NCBI GenBank assembly: GCA_003162635.1
Contig: PMNE01000065.1
Coordinates: forward strand, 1-50,397
Source of the DNA: Ignavibacteriota bacterium
Lineage (GTDB): Bacteria > Bacteroidota > Ignavibacteria > UBA10030 > UBA6906
Length of the DNA: 50,397 nucleotides
Direction: 5' to 3'
In this document: piece by piece, positions 38,357-45,677 of the stretch
Layout: the number at the start of each line of letters is the position of its first letter
How positions within the stretch are numbered: position 1 is the stretch's first letter
Notes under the pieces: generated by a model
Database searches by the model: none
The model's input: the letters and a program-made list of their open reading frames with translations, nothing else
What the model was told of the DNA's origin: nothing
Made by a program: the position numbers and the translations under genes

Positions 38357-38382
38357 AAAAAATCAGTTTCGACTACTCGAAA
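38357..38382 (-). terminator. intrinsic terminator overlapping the hprK stop
   Basis: On the minus strand TTTCGA and TCGAAA (38382-38377, 38372-38367) flank GTAG, and a T6 run follows (38362-38357). The stem includes the hprK TAG stop codon. The M23 promoter lies immediately downstream, so operons are insulated. Confidence 0.55.
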
Positions 38383-39380
38383 TCGTGCTCAAAGTAATTG
38401 ATTGCCCTGTTTCCCTTCTTCTTTTGCCCGATAACCCCTTCCAAACGCTTGGCAAACTCCTTCGGGGCATCGTATCCATAGTGTTTCAGGAGATAGTTGA
38501 GTGAAACGACTTCGGCAATCACGGTGACATTCTTTCCCGGGAAGATAGGGAGCTTCACAAGGGGTATATCCACTCCCAAAATGCTCACTTGGTCGGTGTC
38601 CAGCCCCGTCCTCGTGTAATCCCGGTCCCCTTGCCACTCCTCAAGCTCGATGGCGATCTCCACCCGTTTCTGAAAGCGGATGGCCCGGATGCCAAACATG
38701 CTCCGGACATCGATCAGGCCAAGTCCCCGGATCTCCATAAAGTGCTTTACGAGGTCGGTCCCCGCGCCGATGAGTATGCCCTCCCCCTTCCGCGTCACAT
38801 TCACGACATCGTCCGCCACCAGGCGGTGCCCCCTTTCAATGAGGTCGAGCGCGATCTCGCTCTTGCCGATCCCCGAGCGTCCGGCAAGAAGCACGCCGAC
38901 GCCGTAGATGTCGACAAGAGAGCCATGAACGACCACCTGGGGAGAGAACTGGTCGTCAAGAAAATCGGCCAGGAAGTAGGAAATCTTCGTTGTCTCGAAC
39001 TCGGTCCCGAAGATAGGGATGTGCCGGGCAGCAGCCGCCTGAAGGAGTTCTTCGGCAATGATGTTGCCGTTGGTCAGGATGATGCACGGCATCTTGAATT
39101 CGAGCAGGTTGGTGCACGCCGCCATCCGCTGGGACGGCTTCAGGGAGTTCAGGTACCGGATCTCCGTATTGCCCATGATCTGGACCCTGTCATAGGTGAA
39201 CAACTCGACATACCCCGCCAGGGCCAGGCCGGGCCGGTTCAGACTCTTGTCCCGGATCAGGTTGTCAAAGCCCGCCTCGCCGTTCAACTGCTTCAATCCG
39301 AACCGATCATGCGTCTGCTGGTACAGAAAGCCGGCGGTGATGCTTTTTTTCCGTGTCTCGTGTGTGCGTTCGATTTTCAT
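38373..39380 (-). CDS. hprK: HPr kinase/phosphorylase
   Basis: 335 residues. N-terminal regulatory domain, then Walker A GRSGIGKSE at residues 167-175, followed by ALDLIERGHRLVADDVV and the HprK signature IRGLGLIDVRSMFG. The C-terminal region resembles typical HprK proteins. In Firmicutes it phosphorylates HPr at serine for carbon control. In Gram-negative bacteria without a sugar PTS its target may differ. No ptsH is in view. It follows hpf by 106 bases, with a small frame between. Confidence 0.92.
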   Translation of the reverse strand: MKIERTHETRKKSITAGFLYQQTHDRFGLKQLNGEAGFDNLIRDKSLNRPGLALAGYVELFTYDRVQIMGNTEIRYLNSLKPSQRMAACTNLLEFKMPCIILTNGNIIAEELLQAAAARHIPIFGTEFETTKISYFLADFLDDQFSPQVVVHGSLVDIYGVGVLLAGRSGIGKSEIALDLIERGHRLVADDVVNVTRKGEGILIGAGTDLVKHFMEIRGLGLIDVRSMFGIRAIRFQKRVEIAIELEEWQGDRDYTRTGLDTDQVSILGVDIPLVKLPIFPGKNVTVIAEVVSLNYLLKHYGYDAPKEFAKRLEGVIGQKKKGNRAINYFEHDFE

Positions 39381-39478
39381 GGTTCAGCCCCAGCTTCGCC
39401 AGGCCGCACCCGCCGCCGTCCTGTTTCCCGTTCGGCGATGCGTTCCGGTGGCAATGAATGATCAACGTTGTGCCGCAT
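39377..39478 (-). CDS. possible 33-residue protein coupled to hprK
   Basis: A frame beginning MRHNVDHSLPPERIAERETG that ends in TGA overlapping the hprK start (ATGA). GAGGGG precedes the ATG at 39478 by four bases. It is rich in Arg and Glu with no recognised family. It may be a real small protein or an upstream frame that couples translation of hprK. Length alone makes chance occurrence likely. Confidence 0.3.
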   Translation of the reverse strand: MRHNVDHSLPPERIAERETGRRRVRPGEAGAEP

Positions 39479-39486
39479 GCGTCCCC

Positions 39487-39822
39487 TCACGAGGTCTTCT
39501 CCCTGATCGCGCGGACTTTCTCCTTGTCTTTCGAGCGAATTCTGGTCTTGTATTTCGCCAGCTGCATCTCCAGTTTCTCCGTCGTGGCGTCGAGCGACTT
39601 GATGAAGTCCTCGGACTTTTCCTTCGCGTTCAGAACGGCCCCGTGCACCCGGAGGTTGATCTCCGAAGTCTTGACGCTCTTGCTGACACGTTCGTAGCTC
39701 AGGATGATCTCGGCGGAGACGATTCCGTCATAGAAACGGTCGAGCTTTTTCACCGCCTCGAGGGCGTGCTCCTTGATATCCGGATGAGCATGGAAGCGGC
39801 GTGCAGTAAATTTGACGTTCAT
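39487..39822 (-). CDS. hpf: short ribosome hibernation promoting factor
   Basis: 111 residues from ATG 39822 (GGAGGAG ahead). HPF/YfiA fold: MNVKFTARRFHAHPDIKEHA, LDRFYDGIVSAEIILSYE and INLRVHGAVLNAKEKSEDF, then an Arg/Lys-rich C-terminal helix. Lacks the C-terminal dimerisation domain of long HPF. It binds the decoding site of resting ribosomes. Located 34 bases after xerC, upstream of hprK. A start at 39846 would add eight residues. Confidence 0.9.
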   Translation of the reverse strand: MNVKFTARRFHAHPDIKEHALEAVKKLDRFYDGIVSAEIILSYERVSKSVKTSEINLRVHGAVLNAKEKSEDFIKSLDATTEKLEMQLAKYKTRIRSKDKEKVRAIREKTS

Positions 39823-39855
39823 GGCCAGACTCCTCCATCGAAACATAAGAACGGT

Positions 39856-40755
39856 TCATGATGCCTTGGGGTGCGCCTGATCGTAGACCTTCCGAAGGCG
39901 CTCGATGCTCACGTGCGTATAGATCTGTGTCGTCGAGAGGCTTTCATGGCCCAGAAGCTCCTTGACAGCCCTGAGGTCAGCCCCATGGTCCAGCATATGC
40001 GTGGCAAACGTATGACGGAGAACATGGGGACTCTTCTTTTCGATCTCCGCAACACGTCCGATATACTCATTGACAAGGAGATTCACCCCCTTGGGGTTCA
40101 TCGGTTTTCCCCTGACGGTAAGAAAGACATTCGGAGGAACGGGACGCGCGACGGCAAGGGATGGCCGCACGGCCAGGTACTGCCGCAGGGCGCTCTTCGC
40201 CTTCCGGCCGAAGGGGATGATCCGTTGTTTGCTCCCCTTCCCCATCACGATGATCGTTTCGTTGCCGAAATCAACATCGCTGAGGGTAAGCCCCAGAAGT
40301 TCCGCGAGCCGGATACCGGTGCTGTACAACAGTTCCAGGATCCCCGCATCGCGGGCCCCCAACGGCGTTGACCGGTCGGGCTGATCCATCAATCGTGTGA
40401 CGCTCTCTTCATCGAGGAAGTGCGGGAGACGCTTTTCCAGCCGGGGAGCCGCGATGTTTACCGCTGGACTCGCGGCGATGGTTCCCGTTCGTCGCAGGAA
40501 GTGGAAGAAGGATTTCAGACAGGCCAGCTTCCTGGCAAGACTCGATCGGGTGTATCCCTGTTCGTGCAGCGATGCAAGGAACCGCCGGATGGCCCCCTGA
40601 TCGATTTCTCCCGGTTCCGGGACGACGCCTGCAGAGGCATGGGCGAGGAATGCCGTAAACTGCCTGAGATCCTCTTTGTATGCCGCGACCGTATGGGGAG
40701 AGTAGTTCCGCCCCGACGCCAGAAACTGCAGAAAGAGGTCGATGTGTTTCTGCAT
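39856..40755 (-). CDS. tyrosine recombinase XerC/XerD
   Basis: 299 residues. N-terminal SAM-like DNA-binding domain (residues 1-90). The catalytic residues are R149 (STGIRLAE), H244 and R247 (PHVLRHTF), H270 (LLGHESLSTTQ) and nucleophile Y279 (IYTHVS). Size and position downstream of topA fit the chromosome dimer-resolution recombinase rather than a phage integrase; XerC versus XerD cannot be told from one copy. It lies 42 bases after topA. Confidence 0.92.
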   Translation of the reverse strand: MQKHIDLFLQFLASGRNYSPHTVAAYKEDLRQFTAFLAHASAGVVPEPGEIDQGAIRRFLASLHEQGYTRSSLARKLACLKSFFHFLRRTGTIAASPAVNIAAPRLEKRLPHFLDEESVTRLMDQPDRSTPLGARDAGILELLYSTGIRLAELLGLTLSDVDFGNETIIVMGKGSKQRIIPFGRKAKSALRQYLAVRPSLAVARPVPPNVFLTVRGKPMNPKGVNLLVNEYIGRVAEIEKKSPHVLRHTFATHMLDHGADLRAVKELLGHESLSTTQIYTHVSIERLRKVYDQAHPKAS

Positions 40756-40797
40756 GCGATCCCGTTTCCGATGAGGACGGAAGGTGGCCGGGCTCCG

Positions 40798-43170
40798 TCA
40801 GCCCGCCGCCGACTGTACCTCTTGCTTGACGATCTCCGCCTTGCAGGACGGACACTGGAGGTACTCGCCGCGGCTCTGGTTATACTTCAGGACCATATAG
40901 GGGTTACCGCACGTATCGCATGACTGTGCGACGGGCTTGTCCCACGACGCAAAGTCACAGTCGGGATACCGCGAGCACCCGTAAAACACCCGCTTCCGTT
41001 TCGTCTTCCGCTCGATAACATCCCCCTGCGTGCACTTCGGACATTTCACGCCGATGGAGATCGGCTTGGTGTTTCTGCACGCGGGGTAGTTGGAACAGCC
41101 GAGGAAGGCGCCGAACCTTCCCCCCTTGACGACCATATCGCCGCCGCAGAGATCACACTTGCCGCCGACCACGTGCTTGGTGAGTTCCTGCTCCGACGGG
41201 AGGGGTTTGGTATTCTTGCATGAGGGATAGCCGCTGCACGCCATGAAGCGGCCGTTACGCCCCCATTTGATGATCATCGGCTTTCCGCACAGCTCGCACT
41301 TTTCGTCGGTTGCTTCCTGAAGCGACATTTTGATTGCCGCGCTGTTCTTGCTGACCCCTTCGAGCCCCTTGATGAAGGGCCGGTAGAAATCCCCCATCAC
41401 ATTCTGATAGGAGTTCTTTCCCGAGGCGATCGTGTCGAGCTCCTCCTCCATCTTCGCCGTAAACTCCACATTGAAAAGATCCGGGAAGTTCTGCACGAGA
41501 AGTCGGTAGACGGCAATCCCGAGCTCCGTTGGAAAGAGCCGCCGCTCGCGCGCTTCGACATACTTCCGTGTCTGGATGGTATCTACAATAAGCGCGTACG
41601 TGCTTGGTCGTCCGATGCCAAGGGCCTCCAGCTCACGGACGAGGCTGCTCTCGGTAAAACGGGCGGGCGGCTTCGTAAAGTGCTGGTTCGGGAGAAGATT
41701 CTCCAGTGTCGCGGGATCGTGCGCTCTGAGATTGGCCGGGAGCCGCGATGCGGGATCCTCATCGTCATCCTGTTTCTCCGCTTCATCCGCGATATCGTCG
41801 TACACCTGCAGAAAGCCGCGGAACTGAGGAACCGAATCGGTGGCGCGGAAGAGATAGTCCCCGCCCCGGAGATCGACCGTTGTTTGCTCGAACACCGCGG
41901 CGCTCATCTGGCAGGCAAGGAACCTGTTCCAGATCAGCTCATACAGCGCGAACATCTCGTCATCCAGATACTTCTTGACTGCTTTCGGCGCGAACCGCAT
42001 CGACGTCGGGCGGATTGCTTCGTGCGCATCCTGCGACGACTTTCCCTTCTTGAAGGTCCGTGCCTCGGCGGGAAGGTACTCTTTCCCGTAATTGTCGTAG
42101 ATGTACTGGCGCGCTTCCTTCACCGCGTCGTTGCTCAGCCGCGTGGAATCCGTCCGCATATAGGTGATGAGACCAACGCGGCCGTCATCGCCGAGGTCGA
42201 TTCCTTCATACAGTTTCTGCGCCAGCATCATTGTCCGCTTGGCGTGAAACCGGAGGCGCCGTGCCGCTTCCTGCTGGAGGGTGCTGGTAATGAACGGCGC
42301 GCCGGGATTCCGCCGGACCGGCTTCCGCTGGATATCGTCCAGCACAAAGGACTGGCGGCGGATGTCGTTGACATATCCCTCCGCCGTCGTGCGGTCATGG
42401 ATGTTCGGATCTTCCCCCGCCACCTTGAAGAGCTTCGCAAAGAACGGTTCGTTCCCGTGGGCGCGGAATGACCCCACCATCGACCAGTATTCTTCCGGGA
42501 CGAACGCACCGATCGCCTCTTCCCGCTCACAGATCAGCCGGAGCGCGACCGTCTGCACGCGTCCCGCCGACAGGCCGTAGTACACCGTCTTCCACACGAA
42601 GGGGGAGATCTTGTACCCGACGAGGCGGTCCATGACGCGGCGCGCCTGCTGGGAATTCACAAGGTTCTGGTCGACCTTCATCGGATGCTGCATCGCTTCG
42701 GTGATCCCGCGTTCCGTGATCTCATGGAACATGACGCGAAAGATCTTCGGATTCTCCTGTTCCACTTCCTGGGCCAGGTGCCAGGCGATCGCTTCTCCTT
42801 CGCGGTCGGGGTCGGTCGCCAGATAGACTGCATTCGCTCTGCGCGCATGCGCGTGGAGACGCGCAATCACCTCGGCTTTCCCCGCAATAGTCTCATATTC
42901 GGGGACGAACCCGCCCTCCACGTCAACGCCTAACTTGCTCTTCGGGAGGTTTTTGATGTGGCCGACCGATGCCTCGACAACGTAATCGTTCCCGAGGTAT
43001 TTGTTGATGGTTTTCGCTTTGGCCGGTGATTCGACGATGATGAGCGACTTGCCGCTTGGATCGACGACGGCAACTCTTCGTTTGCGCGTTTTCCTGGTCG
43101 GTGCCTTCGCCTCTGCGGCTGCCTCGTTCGCCCGCTCTTCCTTTCGTGCCGCTTTCTTTCGTGGTGCCAT
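40798..43170 (-). CDS. topA: DNA topoisomerase I
   Basis: 790 residues. A basic N-terminal tail of 40 residues rich in Lys, Arg and Ala precedes TOPRIM (KSLIIVESPAKAKTINKYLG, DPDREGEAIAWHLA). The active tyrosine lies in GLITYMRTDSTRLS. Three C4 zinc ribbons (CELCGKPM, CDLCGGDM, CPKCTQGD) and a fourth cysteine cluster (CDTCGNPY) follow at the C-terminus. The start shares one base with the smg stop. Relaxes negative supercoils. The basic N-terminal tail is unusual and may bind DNA. Confidence 0.97.
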   Translation of the reverse strand: MAPRKKAARKEERANEAAAEAKAPTRKTRKRRVAVVDPSGKSLIIVESPAKAKTINKYLGNDYVVEASVGHIKNLPKSKLGVDVEGGFVPEYETIAGKAEVIARLHAHARRANAVYLATDPDREGEAIAWHLAQEVEQENPKIFRVMFHEITERGITEAMQHPMKVDQNLVNSQQARRVMDRLVGYKISPFVWKTVYYGLSAGRVQTVALRLICEREEAIGAFVPEEYWSMVGSFRAHGNEPFFAKLFKVAGEDPNIHDRTTAEGYVNDIRRQSFVLDDIQRKPVRRNPGAPFITSTLQQEAARRLRFHAKRTMMLAQKLYEGIDLGDDGRVGLITYMRTDSTRLSNDAVKEARQYIYDNYGKEYLPAEARTFKKGKSSQDAHEAIRPTSMRFAPKAVKKYLDDEMFALYELIWNRFLACQMSAAVFEQTTVDLRGGDYLFRATDSVPQFRGFLQVYDDIADEAEKQDDDEDPASRLPANLRAHDPATLENLLPNQHFTKPPARFTESSLVRELEALGIGRPSTYALIVDTIQTRKYVEARERRLFPTELGIAVYRLLVQNFPDLFNVEFTAKMEEELDTIASGKNSYQNVMGDFYRPFIKGLEGVSKNSAAIKMSLQEATDEKCELCGKPMIIKWGRNGRFMACSGYPSCKNTKPLPSEQELTKHVVGGKCDLCGGDMVVKGGRFGAFLGCSNYPACRNTKPISIGVKCPKCTQGDVIERKTKRKRVFYGCSRYPDCDFASWDKPVAQSCDTCGNPYMVLKYNQSRGEYLQCPSCKAEIVKQEVQSAAG

Positions 43171-43628
43171 CAGTGTATCGTGTCTCCGCTGTTCAGCATG
43201 GAACGTCCTCCGAAGCCGTCATCACCTCTTCGTGCGAAGAGGACGGAAGCGACGATGTCCCGGAGGTCCGTCACGGCCAATTTCTCGTAGCCGGCCATCA
43301 TGACACGATCGATGACCGTTTCACAATCCTTGTCGTTGATCACACCAAGCTCCAGGAGCTGGAGAAGAAATCCCTGGCTCTCCGTCGACAGTGCTGCCCG
43401 TTCGGCCTCGTGGAGGATGCGGTGGGAGCCCGCAGCAGGCGAGCTGACTCCCGTCTCCCGTTGCTGGTTCGACTCCACGATCTCATGGAACCAGCTGAAG
43501 GCGGCACTGATCTCCGACTGCGTATACCCCTGCGTCGCCAGCTCGGTCAAATCAATCTCGCTGATCCGCTTGTTCTCCTGCACCGCGGACATGATATACA
43601 CGAGCAATTCAACCACTTTTTCCTTCAT
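43170..43628 (-). CDS. smg: Smg/DUF494 family protein
   Basis: 152 residues from ATG 43628 (AAAGGA ahead; an upstream GTG-type extension to 43673 overlaps ybeY). Mostly helical, with KEKVVELLVYIM at the start and ELATQGYTQSEISAAFSWFHEI, as in the Smg/DUF494 family. The function is unknown, although smg often neighbours dprA or topA. Fits the gene order here. Confidence 0.82.
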   Translation of the reverse strand: MKEKVVELLVYIMSAVQENKRISEIDLTELATQGYTQSEISAAFSWFHEIVESNQQRETGVSSPAAGSHRILHEAERAALSTESQGFLLQLLELGVINDKDCETVIDRVMMAGYEKLAVTDLRDIVASVLFARRGDDGFGGRSMLNSGDTIH

Positions 43629-44071
43629 GACAATCCTTTCATCCCCTTCCCGCATCCCAGCGCCCGCAGGCAACGATCCTCACGCCGCTTCATTCCCAGC
43701 CGCAGCCGCACCGTCCCGTCATCATAGCCGAGGAGATGCAGGACACCGTGCACGACGAGCCGCAGAATCTCCTCATGCTCCGGCACGCGCTCCTTTCCGG
43801 CCTGTTCACGGGCTTTATCGAGATTGACGTACACTTCTCCTTCGACCGCATTCTTCTCGTCAAGGGGGAAGCTGATGACGTCGGTCGCCCCGCGGTGTCC
43901 CAGATAGCGTCTGTTCATCCTGGCCGAAAACCGTCCGTCGACAAATACGATGCTGATATCCCCCTTCCGGCGTCTTTCGCGGGAAAAGACAAGACGGACC
44001 GCTTCCTCAATCGGGGCACGACGGACACGTCGGCGTGGGTGTGCGTGAAAAACCCTGACAGCGACCGTCAC
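43625..44071 (-). CDS. ybeY: endoribonuclease YbeY
   Basis: 148 residues, GTG start at 44071 overlapping the previous stop (GTGA). YbeY acts in 16S rRNA maturation and ribosome quality control. SFPLDE and HGVLHLLGYDD are present; the usual H-x3-H-x5-H metal site has the first two His (HGVLH) but the third position is Asp. I recall the same substitution in Bacteroidota YbeY proteins (GYKD). An N-terminal stretch of basic residues HPRRRVRRAP is also notable. Followed by smg with a four-base overlap. Confidence 0.9.
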   Translation of the reverse strand: MTVAVRVFHAHPRRRVRRAPIEEAVRLVFSRERRRKGDISIVFVDGRFSARMNRRYLGHRGATDVISFPLDEKNAVEGEVYVNLDKAREQAGKERVPEHEEILRLVVHGVLHLLGYDDGTVRLRLGMKRREDRCLRALGCGKGMKGLS

Positions 44072-44586
44072 CTCGACCTTGCCTTCGGGCGGCGTCGGGG
44101 CGTCGCGCGCGATTTCCGGGCATGGCGCACCTTTCGTTTTACCCCCGGAAGGACCGGTTCGGTCAGCGACAGCGCCACGCCGGACATCATGACCTCCGGC
44201 GCAAGGCGCGTGAAATCGCCCGAGAGCACCGAACGGTCCACGTTTGCAAACAGAGTGCAGCCGGCAGCCTTTTCAATAATCAAACCCGATAACTTCCCCC
44301 GGTGTTCCCCTACAAATGTCGCCTCGCCGAGTTCCTTGCTGAGGACAAACCCGGAGCAACTGTGCAATTGCATATGGGCCGCATCGGTGTAGACCGAAAG
44401 GAGGTTGCCCCGTTTCTTTCCGAGCGGGAGATCGGGGTAAATCTCCAGCGCAAGCCGGCGTGTCACCTTCCCGTCCGCATCCTGCGCCGCAAGTTCAAAC
44501 CTGTAGTTCGTCCCCATCGGTTTCGCGCGAACGCCGAAGAGATCTTCGAGCTGTTCAATGTCAGACGGCGTGAAGACGGATGCCAT
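44068..44586 (-). CDS. unknown protein upstream of ybeY
   Basis: 172 residues without a recognised family. Predicted mixed alpha/beta. Central LALEIYPDLPLGKKRGNLLSVYTDAAHMQLH is highly structured. Two cysteines (HSCSGF and AAGCTLF) are far apart. The C-terminal 25 residues are strongly basic (VRHARKSRATPRRRPKARSR), which suggests nucleic acid or ribosome contact. ATG 44586 follows AAGGTGG. It is translationally coupled to ybeY by a four-base overlap and leads the ybeY-topA-hprK operon. Confidence 0.75.
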   Translation of the reverse strand: MASVFTPSDIEQLEDLFGVRAKPMGTNYRFELAAQDADGKVTRRLALEIYPDLPLGKKRGNLLSVYTDAAHMQLHSCSGFVLSKELGEATFVGEHRGKLSGLIIEKAAGCTLFANVDRSVLSGDFTRLAPEVMMSGVALSLTEPVLPGVKRKVRHARKSRATPRRRPKARSR

Positions 44587-44618: not shown

Positions 44619-44679
44619 AAAAACATATAAAAGCCCCGGCCGCTTGTCCACTTCGCACGGACGCCCATCGACCGGGGCT
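44619..44679 (-). terminator. intrinsic terminator in the ybeY-topA operon leader
   Basis: Minus-strand arms 44679-44669 and 44642-44632 pair over 11 positions with one G-U, followed by an interrupted T run (44631-44619). It would also stop readthrough from the MBL hydrolase gene. Confidence 0.65.
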
Positions 44680-44726
44680 GAGCATTGTGTCCAACCAAGA
44701 GTTCAAGATTCGACAGGAGCTCCTTT
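44619..44726 (-). ncRNA. candidate leader RNA or small RNA before the ybeY-topA operon
   Basis: From a predicted start near 44726 to a terminator at 44679-44619, about 108 bases. It has a GGAGCTCC palindrome, an 11-bp stem (AGCCCCGGTCG with CGGCCGGGGCT) enclosing a GTCCGT/GTGGAC hairpin with loop GCGAA, then TTTTATATGTTTTT. No gene occupies it. It may be a standalone RNA or an attenuated leader of the 44586 gene. Confidence 0.45.
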
Positions 44727-44732
44727 GCTGCC

Positions 44733-44761
44733 AATATAGCCACACCTCGCCAGATTGTCAA
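44733..44761 (-). promoter_or_regulatory. promoter of ybeY-topA operon or small RNA
   Basis: Minus strand TTGACA (44761-44756), 17-base spacer, TATATT (44738-44733). Close to consensus. Predicted start near 44726, 45 bases ahead of the terminator hairpin. Confidence 0.75.
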
Positions 44762-44780: not shown

Positions 44781-45677
44781 TCACCAGTCGAGTTCCATTC
44801 CTTCCGTGGCCGCGATGCATTCAAACTTGTAGTTCCTCGTTCTGATCTCCCGCAGGCACGTGTTCAGAATCTCATCCACCTTCTCGTCGCTATGCGTCTG
44901 TTCGTGGTGGAACAGCACCAGCCGCTTCACCGCCGCCTCGTCGGCGATCTTCAATGAGAAGAGGTAGTGGGAGTGTCCCCAGCCGACGTGGTTCACATAC
45001 TCTTCCGGCGTGTACGTCGTGTCATGGATAAGGATGTCGGCGCCCCGGCAGAAGTCGAATATCCGTTGATTCGGGTCCCCCTTGACCTTCATGTACGCCG
45101 CCACGATCTTCTTGTCGACGTTCTTGATCGACCTGGCCACCTCGCGATCGAACGGTTCGTTGTCGCTGATGTACACGAGGGAATGTCCACCCACGTTGAT
45201 GCGGTACCCGAGTGCAAACGCGGGATGATTCACGAAGATCGACACGAGCGTCGCATCAAAGATCGGGATGCTCTCTTCCTTGACAGGATGGAACCTGATT
45301 TTCGCCTTCAGTTCGTTCAGCTGAATAGGGAAGTAGGTCTTATCCATCTGGTCGGAGATCATCTGCCGCAGGTGCAGCTTCGGCGATTGCGCACCGATGA
45401 TGGTAAACTCATTTCCCGAGATATACAGGGGTTTGAAGAAGGGAAAACCGTGGATGTGATCCCAATGCGGATGGCTGATCGCTATATAGGCCTTGACCGA
45501 TTCGCCGGTCGCCATCAAGGCATCGCCGAGCCCTCTGATGCCCGTCCCGGCATCGAGGATGACGAGGTTCCCTTTGTGGAGCCGCACTTCAAGACACGGC
45601 GTGTTGCCGCCGTAACGGACGGTGTCCTTCCCGGGAGTGGGGACGGAACCGCGCGTCCCCCAGAATTTGACTTTCAT
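44781..45677 (-). CDS. MBL-fold metallo-hydrolase
   Basis: 298 residues of the metallo-beta-lactamase fold. KFWGTRGSVPTPG and YGGNTPCLEV at the start are typical of the PhnP-like branch. The metal site is SHPHWDH (H-x-H-x-D-H), and further ligands appear in VYISDNEP (D) and near HDTTYTPEEY. The C-terminal HHEQTHSDEKVDEI supplies a final His. It may act on phosphodiester or cyclic nucleotide substrates, but the substrate cannot be read. Last gene of the ctpA operon, 21 bases after the preceding stop. Confidence 0.88.
   Translation of the reverse strand: MKVKFWGTRGSVPTPGKDTVRYGGNTPCLEVRLHKGNLVILDAGTGIRGLGDALMATGESVKAYIAISHPHWDHIHGFPFFKPLYISGNEFTIIGAQSPKLHLRQMISDQMDKTYFPIQLNELKAKIRFHPVKEESIPIFDATLVSIFVNHPAFALGYRINVGGHSLVYISDNEPFDREVARSIKNVDKKIVAAYMKVKGDPNQRIFDFCRGADILIHDTTYTPEEYVNHVGWGHSHYLFSLKIADEAAVKRLVLFHHEQTHSDEKVDEILNTCLREIRTRNYKFECIAATEGMELDW

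Follow-up and report, generated by a model that had tools for sequence, protein, structure and literature searches.

A constrained promoter and terminator-like hairpin ahead of a ybeY-topA-hprK operon in an Ignavibacteriota genome, possibly the remnant of a csp cistron

Analysis of a 50,397-nt stretch of DNA from an Ignavibacteriota bacterium (hereafter the window) revealed a promoter and a hairpin that are real elements under constraint, arranged ahead of an operon containing ybeY, topA and hprK, and separated by an RNA body in which no constraint was detected. We consider it somewhat probable that this unit is what is left of a lost cold-shock (csp) cistron, whose promoter and terminator would have been retained as a constitutive attenuator that does not switch. 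The csp ancestry in the lineage of the window would follow from the position of the unit, from tree and parsimony arguments, and from two csp relics found in other genomes; partial termination is likewise presumed, with expression tuning as the property that selection would keep. The initial annotation had described a structured RNA with its own promoter and terminator; this anatomy was confirmed, while the riboswitch-like reading was not supported; the relatives suggest that no conserved RNA family is involved, and the csp-bearing ones among them point to a more ordinary origin.

The unit reads on the minus strand, a point on which the initial annotation was silent, and all positions are given in window coordinates. 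The features of the region are as follows:

44781-45677, minus strand: MBL-fold hydrolase of the RNase Z/phosphodiesterase kind, upstream neighbour and synteny anchor
44733-44761, minus strand: sigma-70-type promoter TTGACA-17-TATATT (promoter scan; same site in nearly all syntenic relatives)
44680-44726, minus strand: RNA body from the estimated start to the hairpin, ~47 nt, non-coding (constraint undetected against the sister genus)
44632-44679, minus strand: predicted terminator hairpin, 11-bp outer stem around a second hairpin (fold energy and sister-genus identity)
44662-44646, minus strand: inner hairpin with GCGAA loop (fold)
44619-44631, minus strand: T-rich tract TTTATATGTTTTT, where the short RNA would end (sequence)
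44068-44586, minus strand: 172-aa conserved protein, first gene of the operon (ORF, homologue searches)
38373-44071, minus strand: operon apart from its first gene
43625-44071, minus strand: ybeY (Pfam/ORF)
43170-43673, minus strand: DUF494 (Pfam/ORF)
40798-43170, minus strand: topA (Pfam/ORF)
39856-40755, minus strand: xerC/D-type recombinase (Pfam/ORF)
39487-39846, minus strand: HPF-like ORF (HPF assigned by sight of the sequence)
38373-39380, minus strand: hprK (Pfam/ORF)

The unit sits between the MBL-fold gene and the operon formed by the 172-aa protein gene, ybeY and the genes that follow. The -35 hexamer TTGACA (44761-44756) begins ~20 nt past the stop codon of the MBL-fold gene and is followed by a 17-nt spacer and the -10 hexamer TATATT (44738-44733), with transcription estimated to start at ~44726. 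This site scored 11/12 in the promoter scan, which retrieved 2 promoter-like sites in the 1.1 kb scanned versus 0.2 +/- 0.5 in shuffled sequences. Promoter, leader, 11-bp stem with its inner hairpin and T-rich tract are all present as initially described; the unit could yield a ~105-nt RNA, and expression of the operon from this promoter needs read-through. The first gene of the operon starts at 44586, only ~45 nt from the hairpin, and the promoter scan retrieved no convincing second promoter between the two. The earlier designation of a ybeY-topA-hprK operon was right but incomplete, as the genes for the 172-aa protein, DUF494, the xerC/D-type recombinase and the HPF-like ORF also belong to it. 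The 172-aa protein is conserved across Ignavibacteria, KSB1 and Calditrichota, displaying the motif GGCSLYANVDR...LSGDFTQLGPEVMLSG, and matched no Pfam or NCBIfam family. Its AlphaFold model consists of a helix plus a beta meander (mean pLDDT 73, with low confidence in the C-terminal third), and an assignment of function from structure was discarded, since only weak fold matches were retrieved, the best in the PDB being the immunity protein 6cp9 (E 0.15, TMt 0.62).

The outer stem of the hairpin, AGCCCCGGUCG/CGGCCGGGGCU, comprises 11 bp and encloses GUCCG(U)/(G)UGGAC, with the GCGAA loop obtained if the closing U-G pair is counted. The 52-nt hairpin is stable and G+C-rich, as in intrinsic terminators, folding at -27.6 kcal/mol (z = -2.7; 1 of 200 shuffles was equally good); the whole 113-nt RNA reached z = -2.2. 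Because the RNA body without the hairpin displayed a z of only -0.75, the terminator hairpin is the sole unusual structure of the unit. The tail UUUAUAUGUUUUU is a mediocre U-tract: right after the stem, the window genome has CUUUUAUAUGUUUUU and the sister genus only CUUUCGUGU, and termination in the latter may be weak given this poor tract. Many other relatives have good U-tracts at the corresponding terminator, and two csp terminators of the window genome have T6-T8 tracts, stronger than the tract of the unit. A strict terminator scan did not call the hairpin, presumably because that scan admits only loops of 3-8 nt. We read the hairpin as a predicted Rho-independent-type terminator.

Constraint was assessed against the fourfold-degenerate sites of the neighbouring MBL gene as neutral yardstick, where the window genome and its sister genus share 38-52% identity (~47%). 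The promoter displayed 69-72% identity to the sister genus (p 0.003-0.04 against fourfold sites), and the hairpin 73-78% (~75%; p 0.002 to 3e-5); the RNA body showed 41-55%, above neutral in only one of the four comparisons (p = 0.03), and the window genome lacks ~46 nt of body relative to the sister genus. One branch is common to all four comparisons, which are not independent of each other. Members of the sister genus share 92-98% identity in the hairpin, versus 53-67% at fourfold sites. The hairpin is thus conserved in the sister genus above neutral expectation, and the outcome that the initial annotation had named as refuting, a stem not conserved in relatives, did not occur; nevertheless, this sister-genus identity exceeds the needs of a plain terminator and, occurring despite the poor U-tract, constitutes the one observation that a plain-terminator reading does not explain well. 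Covariation of the stem within the family, a check named in the initial annotation, was no higher than in shuffles, apart from one G-C/A-U swap. Two lineage-specific traits of the body were also observed. The sister genus (L051, L052, L053, L135; alignment A4, columns 57-83) carries an extra body hairpin of the GTCCGGC...GCCGGAC type that is absent from the window genome; some of the genomes that have it keep the pairing intact, and others show it partly disrupted. Furthermore, the clade formed by L080, L086, L085, L079 and L096 has in common a body stretch around AGAAGCTGAGTTGAASA, located ~25-50 nt before the hairpin; in that clade, unlike in the lineage of the window, it may represent a clade-specific functional RNA.

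Of 60 related genomes, 52 contained the gene for the 172-aa protein, and searches located it at 80 named loci, most of them in Ignavibacteria, KSB1 and Calditrichota MAGs. Three arrangements were recognized upstream of it: promoter, csp, terminator and gene; promoter, non-coding RNA, terminator and gene, as in the window; and promoter directly followed by the gene. A total of 86 loci, classified with manual correction of six calls, corresponded to 31 with a non-coding RNA and terminator, 25 with csp, 17 direct, 2 with csp relics, 2 with degenerate terminators and 9 unclear. A CCCCG...CGGGG hairpin occupies the corresponding place in many genera, and csp lies between promoter and CCCCG/CGGGG terminator in Ignavibacteria, KSB1, Calditrichota and Kryptoniota MAGs. 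The promoter is homologous across csp-bearing, csp-less and terminator-less members of the family, with 66% identity between the first two versus 27% in shuffled sequences; the RNA body displayed no homology to the csp leaders of the family past ~10 nt after the promoter. The csp cistrons that precede the same gene at L056, L057, L058, L060 and L066 share with the window the promoter site, the neighbours and the position of the CCCCG/CGGGG hairpin, ~25-45 nt before the gene, and differ from it in the csp frame, which is absent in the window genome. Promoter and terminator of the window are therefore positioned as in the intact csp cistrons of its family. Decayed csp frames were recognized in the slot at L055 (E 4e-12) and L097 (E 2e-6), with no match in shuffled controls, and the L097 leader begins like the csp leader of L111, its sister. 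Conversely, the csp-frame search retrieved no remnant in the window genome or in the csp-less members of its family, which would be consistent with a clean deletion, not proof of it. At KSB1/Calditrichota-type loci (L070, L083, L088, L101, L104, L110, L111 and L117), csp adjoins the 172-aa gene and neither the MBL gene nor ybeY was detected beside the pair. The pair thus looks older than the operon context, and a functional link between csp and the 172-aa gene is possible.

In a quick family tree with many weak forks, a 3-row csp clade has as its sister group a csp-less clade of 15 rows (support 93) that keeps promoter and terminator, except for a nested clade of 5 rows (support 98) which lost both the RNA body and the terminator; G010, csp-less and of the same family by group code, came out on a long branch in another part of the tree. 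The number of changes does not by itself distinguish a gain from a loss, and csp is taken as ancestral because it is present in KSB1, Calditrichota and Kryptoniota. The simplest history would then be that csp was lost while promoter and terminator stayed in place, the terminator later disappearing in one branch. An association of terminator loss with an altered -10 was considered and rejected: the five terminator-less family genomes with TATCAT or TATAAT instead of TATATT make up one clade, and other terminator-less lineages (L087, L099, L102, L108 and L116) have a full-score promoter. Where relatives carry csp, its stop codon mostly precedes the hairpin by ~22-36 nt. This is near the limit reported in an E. 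coli test system, where a translating ribosome >27 nt away no longer disturbs a terminator (PMC4824070); the loss of csp would not necessarily have changed termination much.

According to the csp-remnant explanation, a small csp gene would once have stood before the operon, between a constitutive promoter and a terminator of the Rho-independent type, and the csp frame would have been lost in an ancestor of the lineage while promoter and hairpin stayed. RNA polymerase would start at ~44726, make ~47 nt of meaningless leader and meet the hairpin, where a share of the transcripts would end as an untranslated RNA of ~105 nt; the remaining transcripts would read through into the operon, with the hairpin attenuating operon expression to a fixed degree and without switching. 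Among partial intrinsic terminators inside operons is the rplL-rpoB attenuator of E. coli. Partial internal terminators that set operon levels have also been documented in an archaeon (PMC10450193). The unit would resemble such internal terminators in having a terminator between promoter and downstream genes and a fixed read-through share, with no need for a ligand or a switch; in contrast to them, no gene is left upstream of the terminator, and thus the predicted terminated product is a short untranslated RNA.

The main rival explanation, which we hold to be unlikely, proposes a lineage-specific, trans-acting sRNA gene of ~105 nt, perhaps derived from the remains of the csp cistron, with the operon as a bystander. 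In its favour, sRNA genes usually consist of a promoter and a terminator that enclose no conserved open frame, the unit occurs repeatedly across many genera (31 of the 86 loci), and one clade has the common stretch around GCTGAKTTGAA before the hairpin. However, between the window genome and the sister genus the body is unconstrained and carries the ~46-nt gap, several relatives do without the RNA, and the hairpin lies close to the operon start with no convincing promoter in between. Moreover, a covariance model built from the window genome and four sister-genus genomes found no convincing relative in the other 16 genomes of the family or in the other loci searched, the best hits beyond the five founders being one off-locus (G001:C323, E = 0.013) and one in L113 (E = 0.06); hence no homologue was found past the sister genus.

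A regulated attenuator, in which passage through the hairpin depends on a ligand, on a protein (e.g., a cold-shock protein encoded elsewhere) or on a leader peptide, appears quite improbable. Like riboswitch and attenuation leaders, the unit is ordered as promoter, leader, terminator and operon; unlike them, it showed no conserved aptamer, alternative antiterminator or conserved leader peptide. Pairing of the 5' arm of the hairpin with the leader was 0.01 in the window genome versus 0.41 in shuffled leaders, and 0.43 versus 0.52 across 29 loci, which makes an antiterminator switch unlikely. Leaders range from ~33 to 190 nt, and their length and sequence differ between genera; together with the lack of an antiterminator, this favours a fixed, partial terminator. 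An 8-codon frame noticed by eye in the sister genus was discarded as a leader peptide, as it has no start codon in one of the four genomes. Rfam searches of the unit at gathering and permissive thresholds, as the initial annotation had envisaged, returned only a chance microRNA match, in line with its remark that no known family was recognized. With a body that is unstructured and evolves at neutral rate, the riboswitch reading is not supported. Identity with SRP RNA or 6S RNA was rejected, since both matched at other places in the genome, in agreement with the earlier exclusion of SRP RNA (found at G000:C62:202306-202404). The 6S RNA model matched at full length at G000:C109:41168-41378 on the minus strand (locus L142; 31.1 bits against a cut-off of 46.4, E 2e-4), which is probably a divergent 6S RNA. 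On the other side, the sister-genus hairpin is conserved beyond need, the window genome has 5 csp matches elsewhere, and CspD, a cold-shock protein of E. coli, makes intrinsic termination weaker (PMC9765468). As cold-shock proteins are able to weaken intrinsic terminators, a trans-regulated version is kept open at low probability. Its specific form, in which the hairpin would be a site for a cold-shock or other RNA-binding protein controlling read-through, a trans-controlled remnant of a self-controlled csp-operon circuit, is highly doubtful; if true, a protein-bound hairpin would control an operon for ribosome maturation, hibernation and DNA topology.

Finally, it is very unlikely that the hairpin is the terminator of the upstream MBL gene, with the operon expressed from an unseen promoter after it: the MBL gene ends ~100 nt before the hairpin with no other terminator-like hairpin detected between, and the promoter scan gave a weak TGGACA-17-TATGTT match across the 3' side of the hairpin, but the sister genus lacks TATGTT, a strong conserved promoter lies between the MBL stop codon and the hairpin, hairpin-less relatives have that promoter directly before the first gene, and KSB1 relatives keep csp, hairpin and gene with no detectable MBL gene upstream.

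These results advise caution: a neutral yardstick is needed before units of this kind are called riboswitches. When a small gene disappears from the head of an operon, what stays behind can look like a convincing structured RNA with its own promoter and terminator. The states that recur across related lineages, namely csp with terminator, bare terminator and no terminator, constitute a natural series, usable for asking how operons rebalance their expression after the loss of a first gene.
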